A program made the translations under genes and the position numbers. This document shows positions 8,440 to 30,667 of a DNA stretch of 32,481 nt, in pieces. Within the stretch, counting starts at the first letter, position 1, and the number at the start of each line of letters is the position of its first letter. Source of the DNA: a virus. The notes under the pieces are model-generated. The model was not told the origin of the DNA, did no database searches, and worked only from the letters and a program-made list of their open reading frames with translations. Location: positions 1-32,481 of IMG/VR virus record IMGVR_UViG_3300031703_000031. One strand, 5' to 3'.

Positions 8440-9873
8440 TTATGAATTAATTAAATATTTTGCAATGGTAGCGCCAGCGGCATTCTTCCATACAGGGTTT
8501 GCGTTGGTACCTTTTGTGGTTAATACCTGCCCATTGAGTCCAGCATTAAGAGCAACAGGGCCAGAAGCACCTCGGTACAGTAGATCTCCGTGTGAAGTTA
8601 TCGTTAATCCAACATCCGTTCCAGCATTGGCAAATGTTGCCCAATATGAAGAATCTCCAGCAAATGAACCTGATGTGTGATCTGCGGTTGCTACATATAC
8701 AGAACCACCAGAGTTAACAAGGTCATTTACTTTGTATGCGGTACTGGTTGTCCAGTTTCCTTTCCAATCAAGACCACCAGAGAATTGCTCCCATTTACTT
8801 GCTGCAAGGTCTGTTGCATGAACAGTAGATGCATGAGTAAGTAAAGCTTTAAATGTTTTACCGCCATAAGAAACAATATCATTTGCAAGGTAAGCAGTAG
8901 ATGTTGCCCATTGACCGCGTCCTCTTAGACCTGAAGCAAGCACTTCCCAAGAAGCTGCAACAGAATCTGGTAAATCACCTGTAGTTATGATGCGAGCTAT
9001 GTAGGTACTTCCTCCATAGACAACAACATCATCTGGTTGATAAGTAGTTCCAACGACCCATTGACCCTCAAACTGAATACCAGACGAAAGTACGTCCCAC
9101 TGAGCAGTGTTAACTGAGGGTGCGCTTCCAGCTGTGGGGTTGTCTGCAACTGCAATATATGCATTACCGCCAAAGGTAGCAACATCATGGATCTTGTAGT
9201 TAGATTTAGAAGTATCCCAAGCAGCAGTGTATTTAATTCCACTTGTAAGAACGTCCCATTTACTTGCATCGGTAGGTAGATTACCCACTGTGTCTAACTT
9301 AGCAATGTAAACACCAGCGCCATAAGTGACTACGTCATCTTTCTGGTAGCTAGTTCCGTTGTTATAAATACCTTCCCATTGAATACCGTGAGAAAATGTA
9401 GACCAGTATGTCCCATCGGTAGGTAAGTTTCCACCGGGAGAGTTGACAATACAAATATAAGTGTTAGCACCGTAGTAAACAATATCGTCTTTTTGGTAAA
9501 CAGTTGCGTTGTTGTACTCACCTTCAAACTTAATACCAGTAGCAAGTAGCTGCCAGTATGTAGCATTTGGTGGAGCATTACCTGCAGATGGTTCACTTAA
9601 AATATTAACGTATGCGTTGTTTGCGTGATGAACAACCTCATGCCGCTTATACGCAGTAGCTGCAACATACTCGCCTTTCCAAGAAAGACCTTCCTGTACT
9701 AAAGCCCAATATGTTGATTCTGTAACAGCTTGACCGCTAGTCTTTAGTGCATAGATATACACATAGACATCTCCACCATGCCGCACTAAATCATTGGATT
9801 CGTACTGGACATTAGATGCCCATTCCCCTACCCAGTTAAACCGTAGCTTACCTAAATCAATAGTTGTACTCAT
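8440..9873 (-). CDS. Tail fibre with eight carbohydrate-binding (CBM5/12-like) repeats
   Basis: A 477-residue protein built of eight tandem units of about 50-55 residues. Each starts with a W/F-x-G-x-W/Y step (for example FNWVGEW, LSWKGEY, IKFEGEY, IQWEGIY, IQFEGQW, LDWKGNW), then a tyrosine five to seven residues later, then D-[VIL]-V--G---Y. This is the pattern of chitin-binding type 3 / CBM5/12 modules, used by marine phage fibres to bind surface sugars. Units five and seven have lost parts of the opening motif. The C-terminus (GDLLYRGASG, GQVLTTKG) is a common fibre tail. A frame from 9909 exists, but ATG 9873 has GAGGTGG and overlaps the upstream stop as ATGA, so it is preferred. Confidence 0.8.
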   Translation of the reverse strand: MSTTIDLGKLRFNWVGEWASNVQYESNDLVRHGGDVYVYIYALKTSGQAVTESTYWALVQEGLSWKGEYVAATAYKRHEVVHHANNAYVNILSEPSAGNAPPNATYWQLLATGIKFEGEYNNATVYQKDDIVYYGANTYICIVNSPGGNLPTDGTYWSTFSHGIQWEGIYNNGTSYQKDDVVTYGAGVYIAKLDTVGNLPTDASKWDVLTSGIKYTAAWDTSKSNYKIHDVATFGGNAYIAVADNPTAGSAPSVNTAQWDVLSSGIQFEGQWVVGTTYQPDDVVVYGGSTYIARIITTGDLPDSVAASWEVLASGLRGRGQWATSTAYLANDIVSYGGKTFKALLTHASTVHATDLAASKWEQFSGGLDWKGNWTTSTAYKVNDLVNSGGSVYVATADHTSGSFAGDSSYWATFANAGTDVGLTITSHGDLLYRGASGPVALNAGLNGQVLTTKGTNANPVWKNAAGATIAKYLINS

Positions 9874-10109
9874 TTGTATACCACCTCTATATGACCATTG
9901 GAACCCCATTGGTACGTTAGTTTGTTTTGTGACCAGAAGTGGTCCTTATAATCATCGTCGTCTATAATGTTACTGTCAGGTAGTTTAACTGCACCTTCAT
10001 CAATTACATGTACAGTCAAATTTCCTGTAGACTTTTCAAGCTTAAAACCATAAAAAGTTTGATGGCTGTAACTAGGCTGATCGTTAGGTTGAGTTCCAAG
10101 ATAAGACAT
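9870..10109 (-). CDS. Small hypothetical virion-region protein
   Basis: A 79-residue protein (MSYLGTQPNDQPSYSHQTFY at the start; DDDDYKDHFWSQNKLTYQW in the middle). Both ends overlap neighbours: its ATG overlaps the stop of the 107-codon gene (TAATG) and its TGA overlaps the start of the CBM fibre (ATGA), so the three genes are translationally coupled. The opening 'MSYLG-QP' is common in marine phage fibre N-termini, suggesting a split-off or separate fibre-attachment piece. No catalytic motif seen. Confidence 0.6.
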   Translation of the reverse strand: MSYLGTQPNDQPSYSHQTFYGFKLEKSTGNLTVHVIDEGAVKLPDSNIIDDDDYKDHFWSQNKLTYQWGSNGHIEVVYK

Positions 10110-11653: not shown

Positions 11654-12742
11654 TTATAATAACTCGGACACTTCATAAGTGACCCTATTGGAAGCTCCAG
11701 ATGTTCTGCGCCTCTGCTCGGCTCTATTTAATTCAATCACACCTTGTGCTTGTTTTTGAAAGTATTTCATTGATTGTGCTTCATCACCAAGGTACTCAAA
11801 TGCATGATGCAGTGCACCCCAAAGAAGTACACGCTCGTTCTCATCTCGTAACCAGTTGTAGACTTCATTTCCTGTGTAGTAAGCAGGTACGGGAGTGTTA
11901 GCTGTTCCACCCATTCCACTGTGGTTTGTGCAGTAGTAATATAAAACAGGTGCGCTGGCAGCTACAACTATCTGAGTATATGCCCCAACACTTCCGGGAG
12001 TCCCAACAACTGTAACACCTGTGGTGTACTCACTTCCACTAGCATGTGTACCATTAGATGTAGTTGAGAATCGTAAGGGGTGGTTGCTGTTACTGGATGC
12101 TGACTGATTAAATATGTAAGTGTTACCTTCTATAAGGTTAAGAGTAGCTTGTGAAGATCCGTCAATATAGTATTTATTACCTGACCCCACGTTATCCACT
12201 GTTACTACATAAGTAGTTGAGCCAGAAGCAGGGAACTGAACAGCTCCTGAATCTGCAGCAGCAGCTATTGCTGTGTTACCTGCAGTAATGTTACTTTGGT
12301 TTACAATGTAAGTTGCATCCATATCAAACAACCTGCGATAGTAGTGCAGCTCATAAACGTCACCTACCGCTGATGCAGGGAAGAACTCTATGTTTGATCC
12401 CTTTCTGGTAAAAGACATTCGTCCTTTAGCTGTGTTCTTATCTGAGAAAGACCTGATGTCAAGCTTGTTGTCAAAAACATAAGAGTTACCTTGACTGTCT
12501 TTAACCCTGAACATTATTATCTCACTCAAATTTGGAGGTATCTGCAGTACTGTTTCACCTGCAGTTTCAGCAGCGTCATATTGATATGTAAACTCCAAAG
12601 GAGGTATGCGAAGTTCTCTGTAGCAAAGGTCTGCAGAGTAATCTATAAAATCAGAGACTAAGGTGTCACTGAGTATTGTACTATCTCTGTTAGCCCAATC
12701 TCGCACTTTAGCTACTAATGCAGTGTACTTTGGAGTTGACAT
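11654..12742 (-). CDS. Head-tail adaptor protein with inserted cupredoxin-like domain
   Basis: A 362-residue protein. Residues 1-150 and 288-350 are the adaptor: helical start (YTALVAKVRDWANR, FIDYSADLCYRELRIPP), beta centre (YELHYYRRL) and helical end (ERVLLWGALHHAFEYLGD, MKYFQKQAQGVIELNRAE), the plan of phage adaptors binding under the portal. Between them, residues about 176-283, is a separate domain: YVVTVDN, LIEGNTYIFNQ, NHPLRFSTT, and LYYYCTNHSGMGG. This is a cupredoxin (plastocyanin/amicyanin-like) pattern, with H221, C271, H274 and M277 in the places of the four type 1 copper ligands. The C-x2-H-x2-M spacing is that of amicyanin. Copper binding is inference; the domain could be a purely structural decoration. 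Confidence 0.75.
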   Translation of the reverse strand: MSTPKYTALVAKVRDWANRDSTILSDTLVSDFIDYSADLCYRELRIPPLEFTYQYDAAETAGETVLQIPPNLSEIIMFRVKDSQGNSYVFDNKLDIRSFSDKNTAKGRMSFTRKGSNIEFFPASAVGDVYELHYYRRLFDMDATYIVNQSNITAGNTAIAAAADSGAVQFPASGSTTYVVTVDNVGSGNKYYIDGSSQATLNLIEGNTYIFNQSASSNSNHPLRFSTTSNGTHASGSEYTTGVTVVGTPGSVGAYTQIVVAASAPVLYYYCTNHSGMGGTANTPVPAYYTGNEVYNWLRDENERVLLWGALHHAFEYLGDEAQSMKYFQKQAQGVIELNRAEQRRRTSGASNRVTYEVSELL

Positions 12743-13153: not shown

Positions 13154-14209
13154 TTAACCAGCTAAACCAACAATCAAGCCACAACCCTTAGGGTTACGAA
13201 CTTCTAAAGTACATTCTTCAACAATCTGACCAATAGTAGAGTCACCTGCTTGACCTACTTCTGTCTCATGCAAAGGACGCAAAGTAGCAATGTTGTACCA
13301 CTGTGGATCATATACAAGACATGAGAAGTCCTTAGAGTTTGAAGCAGCACCAGTACCATCAGTGTTGTGATCTAAACCCATGATGTAGTTTGGTACAATA
13401 CGGATAGCACCGAAGTCGGAGTCATACATCTCAACAGACTGACGAAGCTTACCGCTGTCATCAATGTTACGTTGTACGTTGCTATCAGCAGCTTGTGCTT
13501 TAGCAGAGAACTTACGCTTGTTAGATGGAGAGCACATCATTGTAGTGGCCTTACCACCTTCTTGATAAATGCTTTGCATGATATCATCAACATCACTTAG
13601 CTCAAGAGCAGCCAAGTTAGCATCAGAACCACCACGTACGATAGTACCTACAGTACCTGCACCAGTAGCACTAGGTGCAACGTAACCAGCAGCAGCGCCA
13701 GCTACAACTACGTTTACGTTAGTGAACGACTGATAGCCACCCATAGTACGAGTACCAGATCCATTAGATGGGTTCCAGCTGTGTACTAGGTCATGCTCAA
13801 CGTCACGACGAAGCTCAGTACCACGCTTCTTCAACTGGTAAGCATACTCGTCTGCAACGCCAGCTTGGTCAACTGCGCGCTTAGAACCAGATACTTCAAC
13901 AGTCTTAGAGTTGATCTGAGTGTAGTTACCTAAACGAGTGCGTAGAGGTTCTGCAACCTGAGCACCGTCTACAGTAGCAAAGCTTGAACCTTCAGCTACC
14001 GCATTCGCTCCGGGAGAAGCTAATTCATCTGTTTGCCATTCGTGAAGAATGCCTTTAGATTTTGTTTTGCCAATTGAAGAGTAGAATGGGCTTTCATCAC
14101 GTGTGATCAAACTAATGAAATTAGCTAAATCTTCGCGCTCAGATACATTCATTCCATTAGCACCAGCAGCAGCCTTAGGGCCACCTGTTGTAAAATTACG
14201 TCCAGCCAT
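13154..14209 (-). CDS. Major capsid protein, DUF5309 / SU10 type (HK97 fold)
   Basis: A 351-residue shell protein. Recognised by its beginning and middle: NVSEREDLANFISLITRDES, PFYSSIGKTKSKGILHEWQT, LGNYTQINSKTVEVSGSKRA and, near the end, DPQWYNIATLRPLHETEVGQ. These match the family known as SU10 major capsid protein (DUF5309), which has the HK97 fold. Length is normal. The gene follows the scaffold gene by 38 bases and is followed by a strong terminator. No N-terminal cleaved delta domain is apparent, in keeping with a separate scaffold protein. AAGGAAT precedes the ATG. Confidence 0.88.
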   Translation of the reverse strand: MAGRNFTTGGPKAAAGANGMNVSEREDLANFISLITRDESPFYSSIGKTKSKGILHEWQTDELASPGANAVAEGSSFATVDGAQVAEPLRTRLGNYTQINSKTVEVSGSKRAVDQAGVADEYAYQLKKRGTELRRDVEHDLVHSWNPSNGSGTRTMGGYQSFTNVNVVVAGAAAGYVAPSATGAGTVGTIVRGGSDANLAALELSDVDDIMQSIYQEGGKATTMMCSPSNKRKFSAKAQAADSNVQRNIDDSGKLRQSVEMYDSDFGAIRIVPNYIMGLDHNTDGTGAASNSKDFSCLVYDPQWYNIATLRPLHETEVGQAGDSTIGQIVEECTLEVRNPKGCGLIVGLAG

Positions 14210-16045: not shown

Positions 16046-18232
16046 TTAACCGGGCATACCATCCATTGGAGGTTCCTGAGGTAAAGCTGATTTGGATGCT
16101 CCAGATGCTCCAGCAGTTGTAGTCATAACATCAGCTACAAGTGTTTGTGCTTTTGCATATAGTACATCAATGTTAGTTTTAGTTGGCATGGCTTGCTGTT
16201 CCTTTCCAGCTTCTAAGGCTAACTTGGACCATTCTTGTTCGGATTTATCTAACGCAACCATAAGTTGTTTTAGGTTATCCTGAATGGCGTTCTGGGCTTG
16301 TACGTTTGTGAAGTCAATGTTAGCTTGTTGTAAATCTACTTCTAACTTCGCTGTCAACTCTTTAAGCTCTGTAGCTTTCGCCTGAGCTTCTTGATCTTTC
16401 TTTTGACCTTCTTCTGCTTTCTTTTTAAACTCATCTGTGTTGATATCAATAAGATAATCAAGAGGGTCTAAACCTAAAGCATCAAACGCTTGTACTGCAA
16501 TAGTTGAAGCTGCAGTTGGTGCTACAACAGCACCTGCACCAGCGTCCCGAAGGGCTGGCAGGATTTGTTGGCCTATCATTTGTAACTTCTGTAACTGGGT
16601 CTGATTGCTGGCATCGCCAACATCTGCTTCCACAGACATAAATTCAATTCCGGGTAAATCATTTATTAACACATCGAGATACCTTGCATTTCCTGTATAT
16701 GCCCCTACAGACCCACCACGCATTTCTTTTTGCATTGTACGGTAGATACCTTCAAGGAGTTCCCGACCGCCAGTTTCCATGAATCTACGAGCAATAAATT
16801 GTATGCGTATTTGTGCAGCTGACTGCACTTGTGACACCTTAGCTTCTGAATTACCAGACACGTATAAAGCATCGTTAAGTCCTTGGGCTGCCTTAGACAG
16901 ACCCGTGGCTTGTTCCTTGTGACCTTGCAAGAACTGAAGTAATGGGACAGTTCCTGTTGATATTTGCTCTGGTGGTAAAGATGCAACTGCACCCTGTGGG
17001 TTACCATTAGAGGCAATAATCTGCTTAGGCTTCATGTTTTGTAAAGCAGAGAAGTCGACTACATTGGGGTCTGCAATCTTAGGTGCATAGTTTGTCAAGT
17101 ATGTATTCTCAACAAAGCCACGTAAAATAGCTGTAGATGCCAATGTAGAAGGTCTAACCATATCTGACATAGATAAACCTTCAAGTTCGAATGGTATTTC
17201 AAACGGTGTAAAGGCTGCTACTTGAATATGATCTGCGTCTTCTTCTTCTAGTATAGTGTCGCCTACACGAACAATATACTTTAGTTCAGCGATACCATCA
17301 CCGTCACGATCTACATATACCCAACAGCGGAGTACTACAGCAGACTCTGTGGCTTCTAGTTGATTGTCATCACCTGAACCTAATAACAAGGTTGTACCGA
17401 TAGCTTGCTTACGTGCAAGGGAATCTGTATTAAGCTCGGACGCGTAATGCGTATTACTTTCTACAGTAGACCAATCAACACCTTCAGCTTTGTCAGGCCA
17501 ACGTTCTCTGATTTCGGATCTTGTCATCTCTTCTTCAAAACCTACAAAGGATGCATCATGTATACCTGTGGCGCCTCTTCCGACTCTTAGGGTCTCAGGT
17601 GGTACTGGTGATACAACAACTTTGTTGGTAACTTTTGTACGCTTAAGTCGTACATCAAGGTAGTTACCTGATTGTTCATCTAAATAGATATCACCTGTTG
17701 TAGTGATCTCTGGGTCTGATAGTTGCACATCTAGTGCAGTGCTAGCAATTGTTTCGTACTCTTCAAAAGAAATAGTTTCTTCTGATGCATATGTCCATGT
17801 AACTGCAGCTAGCTTCCACATAAGTGCTGACTTAAGCCATGTGTTAAGAACTGACCAACCACGGTTCTTAGTAAACAAACAGTGGTTTAACAGCTCTGAT
17901 GCTGCAGTAGCTTTATGGTATGCCAGTGGAGTACGATCATAAGACTTAAACTTTGCTAATTTATTGTTATCAAACAATAGCTCTGAGAGTATTGCAGTGT
18001 AACCTTCAATTGCTTCAACTGTGTCTGAGGACACAATACGAGATACGCCTTGTGGCTTTAAGTGGCCTTGGGGTATCATCGCGTATTCATAGGTTGACTT
18101 CTGACGTTCATCAGATAGCTCTGAGGTATCTAGGAAACTAGCACTAGCCTGTGCTAACTTGTAGTCGAGGAGTGTTGTTAGGTCCTCATCGGATACTGCA
18201 ACTTTGTATCCATCTTCATTATTACTTGCCAT
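16046..18232 (-). CDS. Portal protein
   Basis: A 728-residue protein, close to the 725 residues of P22 gp1 and typical of large podovirus portals. The N-terminus has YKVAVSDEDLTTLLDYKLAQ and VSRIVSSDTVEAIEGYTAIL; the centre has VVLRCWVYVDRDGDGIAELK; the helical region has QATGLSKAAQGLNDALYVSG and VQSAAQIRIQFIARRFMETG; the C-terminal 150 residues form a long charged helix like the portal barrel. These segments match marine podovirus portals. It would form the dodecameric ring at one capsid vertex that binds terminase, then the adaptor. It lies between the large terminase and scaffold genes, the standard order. Confidence 0.85.
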   Translation of the reverse strand: MASNNEDGYKVAVSDEDLTTLLDYKLAQASASFLDTSELSDERQKSTYEYAMIPQGHLKPQGVSRIVSSDTVEAIEGYTAILSELLFDNNKLAKFKSYDRTPLAYHKATAASELLNHCLFTKNRGWSVLNTWLKSALMWKLAAVTWTYASEETISFEEYETIASTALDVQLSDPEITTTGDIYLDEQSGNYLDVRLKRTKVTNKVVVSPVPPETLRVGRGATGIHDASFVGFEEEMTRSEIRERWPDKAEGVDWSTVESNTHYASELNTDSLARKQAIGTTLLLGSGDDNQLEATESAVVLRCWVYVDRDGDGIAELKYIVRVGDTILEEEDADHIQVAAFTPFEIPFELEGLSMSDMVRPSTLASTAILRGFVENTYLTNYAPKIADPNVVDFSALQNMKPKQIIASNGNPQGAVASLPPEQISTGTVPLLQFLQGHKEQATGLSKAAQGLNDALYVSGNSEAKVSQVQSAAQIRIQFIARRFMETGGRELLEGIYRTMQKEMRGGSVGAYTGNARYLDVLINDLPGIEFMSVEADVGDASNQTQLQKLQMIGQQILPALRDAGAGAVVAPTAASTIAVQAFDALGLDPLDYLIDINTDEFKKKAEEGQKKDQEAQAKATELKELTAKLEVDLQQANIDFTNVQAQNAIQDNLKQLMVALDKSEQEWSKLALEAGKEQQAMPTKTNIDVLYAKAQTLVADVMTTTAGASGASKSALPQEPPMDGMPG

Positions 18233-22863: not shown

Positions 22864-24942
22864 ATGCAATTATCCAACTATGGTAATGCGGCACAAGTAA
22901 TCGGTGTCCAGCACACCCAACAATTCCAGATGCAAATGAACGCTAAAATGTTCAGCATCTTAACCGATAAACTGTATCAAAACAAAGAAGGTGCAGTCAT
23001 TCGTGAGCTGTCTGCTAATGCAAGAGATGCACATGTTGCAGCTGGCAAAGCAGAGTTACCATTTCATATCACCTTACCCTCATGGATCTCGACAGAGTTC
23101 AAGATACGTGACTTCGGTACTGGCATAGATCCCGATGAATTTTATGATGTATACACAAACCTAGGACACTCAACCAAAGACCATGAGGATACCTCAATTG
23201 GCGCTTATGGATTAGGCTCAAAGACTCCGTTTGCTATCACTGACAGTTACACAATACGTAACTACTGGAATGGTATGGTCTATGTGTACACTGCATTTAA
23301 AGACTCAGGTATGCCCACAGTGTCCTTAGTAGGTTCAGAAGCTTCTGATGAAGTTAATGGACTTGAGATCAGTGTTGATATTGGTTCAGATGGTAATGTA
23401 TCTTCTTTCCGCAGAGAATGTGGAGAACAACTAGGATACTTCACTTTCAAACCAATCATACATAACTATGATGACTTCGTATGGCCTGAAATACCTGAGT
23501 TACACATGGGGTATGATGTAAAGTCTGGACACTATTCTTCTGAGATTACAGTAGTAATGGGCGGTATACCATATACCTCACCTATACGCTCACTTCCAGA
23601 AGGTTTAAAGAACTCTCTTTACCGACTAGACATAACTCTTGTAGCAGAGCTTGGTCAAGTGGATATACCACCATCAAGAGAGTCGTTAGAAATGACAGCT
23701 AAAACCATTGCATTCATTTCTGATAAGATTGCAGAAATATCTGGAGACTACATAATAGATTTCGAATATAGAGTAGAACATGCAGATAATCATGTTCAAC
23801 TAAATGCAATACTAAATAGCAGGATAGACGAATGGCTAAGTAATGGGCATTTCAATACGTCCAATTACAAATACAAAGGACTTACGTCTTCAGGTGAAAC
23901 GCTCACAGAACTACTTGATCAGGATCTAAAAACGTTTAATGCAAAGAAAAACGTTAGACATTACAAAAGCCTCAGGAATAACCACAATGGTTGTTCAGTA
24001 GGGTCACTTATAAACATGATGAAGAACTATAATCATGATAAAGATCAATCTACTCTGTACTTAAACGATTTATCACCAAGAGCTAACAAAGTAATAAATA
24101 GTAATAAAAGCGTACTGGAGACTAATTGTGTAGTTATCTTTCCTAATGAAAGAAAAACAAAACTGTTCTCAAAAGCTGTAAGTGAGGTACATGCAGAGTT
24201 AACTCAACTAGGTTTCAAACCTGTAAAGTTATCAACAATTCTGTCAATGCCCGTTGTAATTAAAAACACAACAAAAAGTAAAACGTATGACAAACCTGAT
24301 CAGGTATTCTTAACGAATAACAGAGGTGTTGTGCTTAAAGATTCAGTAAAAGAACTTCCAGAAGAAGGTTGTTTCGTAACAATGTCCAACTGGACTCTGG
24401 GTAAACGGGAATCATACATATCCTGTGTTAGGCTTTTACTTAACAAAGAAGTGTATGCTCTAAGAAGTCATGCTCAAGCTGCAGCATCTCGTTCAGGTAA
24501 GTGGACTTCAATCCATAAACTAGAAAGTGCCGTAGTAAAAGCATTAACTGCAAGACTAAAAAGAGCAAAAGATGCCGAAGAAACCTTGAGAATCCTAACA
24601 GTGCATGCAAACTGCGGACCATTGTTTGACGAAAACATAGAGAAAGTTGAACTAAACCCTAAGAAAAAGCTAGCAAAGCTTATTAAAGTTTGTAGGGAAG
24701 TACAAGTGGAGTTCAACAACTCTCGTCTGTCACGTGAAGAGGAATATCAAATCCTAAACTTAGGAATCCCCGAGTACAGGTCTGAAGCTAGGCCACCAGC
24801 GTACATAGTTAGGTACGCAAATGAAACGTCTGATAAGTGGTCTCTAATTATCATGTCAACGTTCTACCATAACAGGTGGAATGATGGAGGTAAGGAAGCA
24901 TTACGTCAGGCACTTAATCTAATCGAAGGTAATTTCAAATGA
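22864..24942 (+). CDS. rIIA-like GHKL-fold ATPase
   Basis: A 692-residue protein with an N-terminal GHKL ATP-binding domain: N-box RELSANARDAHVAAG (E48, N52, D55), G1 box IRDFGTGID (D83, G85, G87) and G2 box SIGAYGLGSKTPF (about 111-123). The remaining 450 residues resemble the long C-terminus of phage rIIA-like proteins. In T4, rIIA with rIIB lets infection proceed in lambda lysogens that carry the RexAB exclusion system and affects lysis timing; the biochemical role remains unclear. The next gene is the rIIB partner and overlaps by four bases, which makes the call firm. All ATP-binding residues are present. Confidence 0.8.
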   Translation: MQLSNYGNAAQVIGVQHTQQFQMQMNAKMFSILTDKLYQNKEGAVIRELSANARDAHVAAGKAELPFHITLPSWISTEFKIRDFGTGIDPDEFYDVYTNLGHSTKDHEDTSIGAYGLGSKTPFAITDSYTIRNYWNGMVYVYTAFKDSGMPTVSLVGSEASDEVNGLEISVDIGSDGNVSSFRRECGEQLGYFTFKPIIHNYDDFVWPEIPELHMGYDVKSGHYSSEITVVMGGIPYTSPIRSLPEGLKNSLYRLDITLVAELGQVDIPPSRESLEMTAKTIAFISDKIAEISGDYIIDFEYRVEHADNHVQLNAILNSRIDEWLSNGHFNTSNYKYKGLTSSGETLTELLDQDLKTFNAKKNVRHYKSLRNNHNGCSVGSLINMMKNYNHDKDQSTLYLNDLSPRANKVINSNKSVLETNCVVIFPNERKTKLFSKAVSEVHAELTQLGFKPVKLSTILSMPVVIKNTTKSKTYDKPDQVFLTNNRGVVLKDSVKELPEEGCFVTMSNWTLGKRESYISCVRLLLNKEVYALRSHAQAAASRSGKWTSIHKLESAVVKALTARLKRAKDAEETLRILTVHANCGPLFDENIEKVELNPKKKLAKLIKVCREVQVEFNNSRLSREEEYQILNLGIPEYRSEARPPAYIVRYANETSDKWSLIIMSTFYHNRWNDGGKEALRQALNLIEGNFK

Positions 24943-26358: not shown

Positions 26359-27009
26359 ATGATTAAACTATCTAAAACAAGCAAGATGCCACGTAAATGT
26401 AAATCATGGTCGTTGGAAGCCTTGAAGACATGCCCCGGAAGTATTAAAGAAGTAGTCAAAGGAATTATAGAACTTGTAGATGCGTGTAAAGGTTGTTACG
26501 CAACAACTGGTATGTATAACATGCCTAATGTTAAAGCACCAAGAGCACATAACAAAGAAGATTGGAAAAGAAAAGATTGGGTTGCAGATATGATTGCATC
26601 AATACTAAATGATGAACTGTTTAGATGGTTCGACAGTGGAGACTGTTATGACGTACGTCTAGCAAGAAAGATTAAACAAGTTATAGAAGGGACACCAACA
26701 ACTAAACATTGGTTCCCAACAAGACAACACAAGTTCCCTAAATTCGCCAAGATATTAAATGAGATAGCTGCTATGCCTAACGCAGTAGTACGTCTATCCT
26801 CTGATTCTATCAATGGTGGTATCATAGAAGGTGAAACCACTTCAACTATATGGAGTGTTAAACCACCTAAAGAAGCCTTTGAATGTGGTGCATATACAAG
26901 AGAAGGTCAATGTAAAGATTGTAGAGCATGTTGGGATAAGACAGTAAAAGTAGTTGCATACCCCGGTCATGGGGCAAAGATGCTTAAAGTAATCAGAATA
27001 CAAGGGTAA
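26359..27009 (+). CDS. GP88-like phage protein with cysteine clusters
   Basis: A 216-residue protein resembling the phage family Gene product 88. Front: TCPGS (C25), then ACKGCYATTGMYN (C43, C46). Middle: ELFRWFDSGDCYDVRLARKI and TKHWFPTRQH, VVRLSSDSI, in the rhythm of alternating beta/alpha barrel elements. End: FECGAYTREGQCKDCRACWD, that is C176, C185, C188 and C191 in a C-x8-C-x2-C-x2-C pattern. Seven cysteines in two groups suggest zinc or an iron-sulphur cluster. The family has no known function to me; its shape recalls short radical-SAM-like barrels, but the classical CxxxCxxC loop is not present, so no activity is claimed. Confidence 0.65.
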   Translation: MIKLSKTSKMPRKCKSWSLEALKTCPGSIKEVVKGIIELVDACKGCYATTGMYNMPNVKAPRAHNKEDWKRKDWVADMIASILNDELFRWFDSGDCYDVRLARKIKQVIEGTPTTKHWFPTRQHKFPKFAKILNEIAAMPNAVVRLSSDSINGGIIEGETTSTIWSVKPPKEAFECGAYTREGQCKDCRACWDKTVKVVAYPGHGAKMLKVIRIQG

Positions 27010-29749: not shown

Positions 29750-30003
29750 TTACAATAGTAACTGAAATACTTTGGCTATCAACAGCACTTGCAGTGTTTT
29801 CTTCAGTAATACTCTTCATACTAAACCCACTGTATGCTTACTGGATAGAAAACAAATACCGTATAGATTTAGAAAGCGAACTGTACATAAAAGTATCGGA
29901 AGCTGTAGAAATAGCAGTAGAAGATGGATTACAAATTAGTATTAATTTCACAGTGGGAGAACCAGAAGTTGAAGAAGCCTCAAAAGAAAAAGAAAGTACC
30001 TAG
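29746..30003 (+). CDS. 85-residue membrane protein
   Basis: An N-terminal membrane segment (about 7-32: EILWLSTALAVFSSVILF then ILNPLYAYWI), followed by a charged helical part and a Glu/Lys-rich tail. The tail's DNA is also read in another frame as the start of PhoH. No family recognised. Its ATG overlaps the DUF3310 stop, and ribosome sites between these genes are absent, so coupling is likely. Confidence 0.5.
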   Translation: MITIVTEILWLSTALAVFSSVILFILNPLYAYWIENKYRIDLESELYIKVSEAVEIAVEDGLQISINFTVGEPEVEEASKEKEST

Positions 30004-30667
30004 TAACTCGCTAGGTTTGCAAGCGTTATCTCAAAACCAATCGCACTACATAAACTCAATAGATGATAATGTAGTGTCAGTTGGAACTGGTTTCGCAGGG
30101 TCAGGTAAAACATATATCGCATCTACATGTGCTGCTCAATTTATGATTGACAACAAAGATAGCCGTATCGTTTTATGCAGACCTAATGTATCTGATTCAA
30201 AATCTATAGGCTTCTTACCCGGAGAAGAATTAGATAAAATGGCACCTTGGATTACCCCATACACTGACGTACTACGTAAGCACCTAAATGGTACTTATGA
30301 GAAAGCTATGCAGTCAGGGTCAATTCAAGTAGTTCCATTCGAATACATGCAAGGTAGAACATTCGATAACTCTTTTGTTATCTTAGACGAAGCACAGCAT
30401 ACAACACCAAAAGAAATAGAAATGTTTCTCAAGAGAATAGGTAAAGATTCAAAAGTAGTTATATGTGGTGACATACCCCAAGCGAGATTAGGGCCTAAAT
30501 CAGGTCTTAATCTCTTAATAAACATGCACACCGACAAAACGTTACCTGAAGTGTCAGAGAACATCGGTGTGACAGATTTCAATAACCCAGATGACATTGT
30601 AAGGTCTGTATTCTGCAGAGAAATAACAAAAGCATTTGACAGATACTACACAATGAATGGAAATTAA
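29969..30667 (+). CDS. phoH: PhoH-like ATPase
   Basis: A PhoH-family P-loop protein, common in marine phages: Walker A GTGFAGSGKT, a CRPNVSDSKSIGFLPG segment typical of the family, Walker B FVILDEAQHTT and VVICGDIPQARLG. Members are RNA or nucleotide-associated ATPases whose role in phage is still unclear. An ATG at 29924 opens the frame, but its first 15 residues look like frame-shifted upstream coding sequence and lack a ribosome site; TTG 29969 follows GGGAG by nine bases and gives a basic start (MKKPQKKKK), 232 residues. I prefer the latter. Phosphate control is not shown here. Confidence 0.82.
   Translation: MKKPQKKKKVPSNSLGLQALSQNQSHYINSIDDNVVSVGTGFAGSGKTYIASTCAAQFMIDNKDSRIVLCRPNVSDSKSIGFLPGEELDKMAPWITPYTDVLRKHLNGTYEKAMQSGSIQVVPFEYMQGRTFDNSFVILDEAQHTTPKEIEMFLKRIGKDSKVVICGDIPQARLGPKSGLNLLINMHTDKTLPEVSENIGVTDFNNPDDIVRSVFCREITKAFDRYYTMNGN

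Follow-up and report, generated by a model that had tools for sequence, protein, structure and literature searches.

The head-tail adaptor encoded in the window, by which we mean the whole 32,481-nucleotide stretch of viral DNA analyzed here, carries in one of its loops a separate domain that is predicted to adopt the cupredoxin fold and to hold the complete ligand set of a type 1 copper site. The explanation we favor, and consider probable, is that residues 176-284 of the adaptor are a mobile module of this kind which was acquired into the loop and fills an exposed accessory role. Judged from sequence and model, we are rather confident that the domain can bind copper at the predicted site; the exposed accessory or adhesion role, which is read from context, stands at about an even chance. 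The fold and the ligand set as such are already known, while a search of the open-licence literature returned no description of this domain; the phage cupredoxin-like branch recurring in virion connectors therefore appears to be new with respect to that literature.

The protein hosting the domain is an SU10-type head-tail adaptor by profile as well as by fold (features in Table 1). Its residues 5-144 match the Pfam family SU10_adaptor (PF24175) with an E-value of 3.6e-13 and 50.8 bits (cut-off 27), a search with the adaptor family profile recovers the SU10 adaptor (PDB 7z47; E 3.6e-9), and the modelled adaptor body retrieves the VP1, SU10 and Pa223 adaptors as fold matches in Foldseek. Together with the adaptor body, the window shares with SU10 and T7-type systems the gene order of capsid, portal and adaptor; unlike these adaptors, it carries about 109 extra residues in the loop between the dock domain and the C-terminal helices. 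The SU10 adaptor forms a dodecamer and consists of a helix bundle, a dock domain for the long tail fibre and an embracing loop (PMC9509320). The tail fibre gene of the window (8440-9909, minus strand), located two main genes downstream of the adaptor, contains six stretches of the chitin-binding module CBM_5_12 (E 3e-24), and on the strand opposite to the structural genes we observed rIIA-like (22864-24942), PhoH-like (29924-30667) and Gene product 88 family (26359-27009) genes, all on the plus strand.

Table 1. Positions in the window of the adaptor gene, its parts, the predicted copper ligands and neighboring structural genes.
Feature	Position	Strand	Basis
SU10-type head-tail adaptor gene with inserted domain, 362 aa	11654..12742	-	Pfam, PDB profile match, Foldseek
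Adaptor N-terminal part, residues 1-175: helices and fibre-dock beta domain	12218..12742	-	Alignment with insert-free adaptors; model
Cupredoxin-like domain (predicted), residues 176-284	11891..12217	-	AlphaFold2 model, Foldseek PDB, VIA-align
H221 codon, predicted first copper ligand	12080..12082	-	hhalign to amicyanin His53; conservation rank 3
C271 codon, predicted copper thiolate ligand	11930..11932	-	hhalign to amicyanin Cys92; conservation rank 1
H274 codon, predicted copper ligand	11921..11923	-	hhalign to amicyanin His95; conservation rank 5
M277 codon, predicted axial ligand	11912..11914	-	hhalign to amicyanin Met98; conservation rank 2
Adaptor C-terminal part, residues 285-362: linker, helices, embracing tail	11657..11890	-	Alignment; model
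Major capsid protein, SU10 type, two genes upstream of adaptor	13154..14209	-	Pfam SU10_MCP, E 5.5e-76
Portal protein, SU10 type	16046..18232	-	Pfam SU10_portal, E 6.2e-109

Alignment with adaptors that lack the insert places the insertion point between FPASGST and YYTGNEVYNWL and confirms that the adaptor is interrupted there by roughly 109 additional residues. A preliminary description of the sequence had located the domain at residues 176-283, with coordinates that agree exactly with the codons (12217 for the first letter of residue 176, 11894 for the last letter of residue 283); the location stands, but the homologous unit spans about residues 176-284 and thus reaches one residue beyond that end. 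The insert-free relatives (L085-L096 and L343-L373) are 248-253 residues long and 56-78% identical in the flanks, and a search of the available sequence stretches around them revealed no copy of the domain. The insertion site is permissive, since the same region differs in length by tens of residues in more distant adaptors. In the full-length model of the adaptor, the N-terminal part has pLDDT values mostly above 70 up to residue 138, helices are found at residues 300-349, and the insert follows the dock beta strands and precedes the C-terminal helices; because the insert is covered by one alignment row, residues 139-298 are unresolved in this model, which does not tell how the domain is oriented relative to the adaptor. 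Residues 176-284 thus form a separate domain in a length-variable loop of the adaptor.

The cupredoxin-like fold claimed in the preliminary description is borne out by the predicted structure of the domain. From an alignment of 37 divergent copies, AlphaFold2 returned a model with a mean pLDDT of 91.8, a pTM of 0.86 and eight strands, as expected for the Greek-key beta-sandwich of cupredoxins. The top Foldseek matches of this model in the PDB are all cupredoxins, rusticyanin first, followed by plastocyanin, pseudoazurin, small laccase and amicyanin; the probability is 1.00 for rusticyanin and plastocyanin, with TM-scores of only about 0.4-0.56. Superposition with VIA-align gives Z-scores of 8.3 for rusticyanin (3.1 Å over 105 residues), 8.2 for a nitrite reductase cupredoxin domain, 7.9 for auracyanin and 7.3 for plastocyanin. 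According to the tool's own warning, a Z-score near 8 could by itself reflect a common arrangement, and independent sequence evidence for kinship with cupredoxins therefore matters. The single domain gave no useful match against Pfam, NCBIfam or PDB sequences, and cupredoxins were reached by a divergent profile only. Built from 12 copies and searched by sequence alone against the PDB, this profile has copper nitrite reductase, pseudoazurin and amicyanin among its best matches, all covering the Cys-His-Met loop, with E-values from 0.016 to 0.9 of which none is significant singly. For amicyanin the profile E-value is 0.37, and hhalign gives an E-value of 9e-4 at 23% probability; what links the domain to the amicyanin family proper is the spacing of the ligands. 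In hhalign with an alignment of amicyanin, plastocyanin and pseudoazurin, the match extends over the same residues, with an E-value of 4.5e-4 and 33% probability. The Pfam family Copper-bind (PF00127) is matched by 3 of the 37 divergent copies, at best with E 0.01, and not by the window copy up to an E-value of 10; Ig-like families do not occur among the Pfam matches of the 37 copies. Compared to the type 1 copper proteins amicyanin, plastocyanin, pseudoazurin and rusticyanin, the domain shares the eight strands and the His preceding one of them, and with amicyanin also the Cys-x2-His-x2-Met following a strand. It differs in its extra DQSDSSN and GTPGSxGAYT segments and, as noted, in its Pfam behavior, and it resides in or on phage virion proteins rather than being a soluble electron carrier.

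The predicted ligands follow the register of a type 1 copper site, His...Cys-xn-His-xn-Met. H221, C271, H274 and M277 are all present, and C-x2-H-x2-M is indeed the spacing of amicyanin (CTPHPFM, checked against the sequence of 1aac), with which hhalign pairs the four residues one by one as H221/H53, C271/C92, H274/H95 and M277/M98. In the model, H221 is placed just ahead of one strand, C271 closes another, and H274 and M277 lie in the next loop, a placement consistent with the four residues converging on one metal site. We looked for free variation of the ligands among homologues, which had been named as the outcome that would speak against a copper site, and found instead that H-C-H-M is kept in 400 of the 447 aligned rows. 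Among 29 representatives less than 60% identical to each other, the columns of C271, M277, H221 and H274 rank 1, 2, 3 and 5 of 95 in conservation. Such recurrence of a whole domain of about 108 residues, with the ligand columns in top ranks, lies far beyond chance. The codons drift silently between CAT and CAC at H221 (223 and 176 rows) and at H274 (226 and 173), and between TGT and TGC at C271 (272 and 127), which argues that it is the protein letter that is held. Since baits containing the CxxH motif bias the ligand counts, we also scanned with the first 48 residues of the domain only; all four ligands are kept in 14 of the 19 representatives (80% identity) obtained with this ligand-free bait. 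They are likewise retained in copies that are missing the two long loops (L182, L221, L186).

The alternative that survives best is that the domain is a structural relic, a copper-protein descendant that now serves as a metal-free beta-sandwich ornament and keeps H-C-H-M through packing or recent shared ancestry. In its favor, copies devoid of H-C-H persist in virion genes, and for these the claimed retention of all four ligands, which holds for the bulk of the aligned rows, fails. The ligand positions read D-A-T-M in gp80 of Cyanophage PSS2, which has relatives of the same kind, further losses occur in the second copies of cyanophage gp7 and in a group of large structural proteins, and they read F-A-L-M in the adaptor fusion L223. 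The latter shares 72% overall identity with the adaptor fusion L156, a 023Pt_psg01 protein that has H-C-H; identity between the two is 77% over the adaptor body and 62% over the domain. Copper is thus not obligatory for the fold. Packing alone, however, would not predict that the ligand positions show the highest conservation within the domain below 60% identity while their codons drift, nor the pattern in which ligands are lost or replaced. Loss of C271 goes with loss of H274 (Fisher 3e-5 with ancestry ignored), and on the tree they change together in all three independent pairs, a number too small for a test. Where H-C-H is intact, the axial Met gives way only to Gln (4 rows, from closely related loci) or Leu (1 row), which are natural axial variants of type 1 sites, Gln in stellacyanin and Leu in ceruloplasmin (PMC4059628). 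Packing alone is therefore disfavored, and we regard the relic as improbable: across the sequences the fold survives without the site, yet the site is kept in most lineages. Large structural proteins with several side-by-side copies of the domain (L175, L174, L172, L169; about residues 141-266) were also observed, one of the copies having an axial Gln, one a His only, and one being intact or changed at a single position.

A site for another metal such as zinc, or a metal-dependent glue between neighboring subunits, is considerably less probable still. A cluster of Cys, His, His and Met is able to bind other soft or borderline metals, and the domain turns up repeatedly in symmetric proteins of connector, baseplate and fibre; ligand order and spacing are those of type 1 copper, though, the axial Gln and Leu are those of copper proteins, and related adaptors assemble without the domain.

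The predicted cupredoxin module is widespread. We found it in 192 annotated phage records, mostly from Synechococcus and Prochlorococcus phages but also from Pelagibacter and Methylophilales phages, in at least 599 IMG/VR viral stretches, and in 22 contigs from genome collections, where some of the copies are in phage genes and others look cellular, Prochlorococcus proteins among them. In another cellular-looking case, a 1.06 Mb contig of a Bacteroidetes single cell encodes the domain within a frame of 2759 residues (L254:2-8278), amid repeated beta-rich segments. Phage carriers include gp7 and gp9-type baseplate proteins, tail proteins and tail fibres, and in Cyanophage S-TIM5 the carrier is a structural gene two genes past the portal. 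The suggestion that the segment is a mobile module of marine phage structural proteins is hence well founded, as the same domain sits on many different virion carriers; in the sequences collected here, it is a mobile module associated with virions and found almost exclusively in marine phages. It resembles in this respect the Ig-like accessory domains of phages, which are also promiscuous beta-sandwiches on unrelated virion proteins and patchy between close relatives, but it differs from them in its fold, its conserved metal-ligand set and the lack of any match to Ig-like families.

Amongst these carriers, the head-tail connector stands out. The commonest arrangement consists of one adaptor (A), a small protein of the phrog_28581 type with the domain at its C-terminus, and a second adaptor (B). 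Adaptor A lies directly upstream of 99 of the 125 phrog_28581-type carriers and adaptor B directly downstream of 64, many of the remaining carriers being cut by contig ends. In an independent sample, for which the small protein alone served as bait, the domain is found between A and B in 53 of 80 loci, on the small protein in 34 of them and in a separate adjacent gene in 19. The products of these separate genes start with MAKQ[ST]VGIGSSANDGxGDTLRxG (for example L506:1545-2195, L521:1541-2191 and L529:2711-3361). We rejected the idea that a programmed frameshift fuses the domain to the small connector protein, as the 19 cases are separate adjacent genes. At one locus (L179:2581-4170), the small connector protein and the downstream adaptor form a single frame of 530 residues through an apparent frameshift within the domain, the remainder of which continues in another frame. 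In one phrog_28581 protein (L247:3515-4324), the pairs CDRCG...CRSC resemble a zinc ribbon, whose cysteines are lost in most relatives. The domain is also found at the N-terminus of adaptor A (L065, L156, L223, L530, L532), where L065 matches SU10_adaptor with E 6.2e-14, and inserted into adaptor B at a different site near the dock loop (L401). According to these sequences, the domain has reached SU10-type adaptors at least three times, via three different joints. The three joints, together with the frequent presence of the domain nearby when the adaptor itself is without it, suggest that its function is exercised at the connector, whatever the carrier. The connector is not the sole site of function, as baseplate and fibre carriers exist.

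This distribution bears on a reading in which copper serves as bait for receptor binding, a copper counterpart of the "Ferrojan horse" in which virion copper is offered to host uptake systems or copper enzymes. The near confinement to marine phages and the frequent occurrence in fibre and baseplate proteins fit such a role, and for iron in phage tail fibres the proposal is established (PMC11705849). The iron sites at T4-type tail fibre tips are likewise metal ligands in phage tail proteins, marine carriers included, but they consist of HxH histidine pairs on a trimeric fibre (PMC11705849), while a single-chain Cys-His-His-Met site is predicted here. The adaptor ring is not at the distal tip of the virion, and we hold the bait to be quite unlikely. 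A redox trigger, in which the oxidation state of copper in the adaptor ring gates DNA release, fits the location in a head-tail adaptor and the redox competence of the ligand set, but it is the least credible of the alternatives, given that closely related adaptors do without the domain, that the ligand-less fusion L223 exists beside the ligand-bearing L156, and that the same domain occurs on baseplate, fibre and giant bacterial proteins where there is no such gate. More generally, the existence of insert-free and ligand-free relatives makes an essential role in assembly or ejection unlikely, and with it a copper-stabilized interface or redox trigger on which the adaptor would depend, two of the roles that the preliminary description had considered.

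Surface display or binding is the role left likeliest for the cupredoxin-like module, as far as its context indicates. If the adaptor ring is dodecameric as in SU10, up to twelve copies of the domain could surround each virion connector. The cytoplasm contains too little copper for loading, so the domain would be made copper-free in the cytoplasm and would take up copper at or after lysis and release. It might then act as an exposed display or adhesion module in which the copper site stabilizes the domain or joins in binding; a purely structural metal is rather unlikely. Adhesion, copper chemistry and plain stabilization are each compatible with the present sequence and model data.

A wider proposal would make copper metalloproteins of the virions in a large share of marine phages, with a dedicated phage cupredoxin branch at connectors, baseplates and fibres in which copper is functional, be it in host recognition, redox sensing or copper delivery. 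We advance this tentatively, as a possibility less likely to hold than to fail. With hundreds of marine viral contigs encoding the domain, cultured cyanophages included, copper-carrying virus particles become a testable idea, for which the natural ligand-free variants of the domain provide built-in controls. Even without copper, the domain is a well-bounded mobile virion module that occurs repeatedly in the connector on different carrier proteins. If virions do carry blue copper, a metal cofactor would be added to what is known of head-tail connectors, and marine viruses might contain a copper pool of their own.
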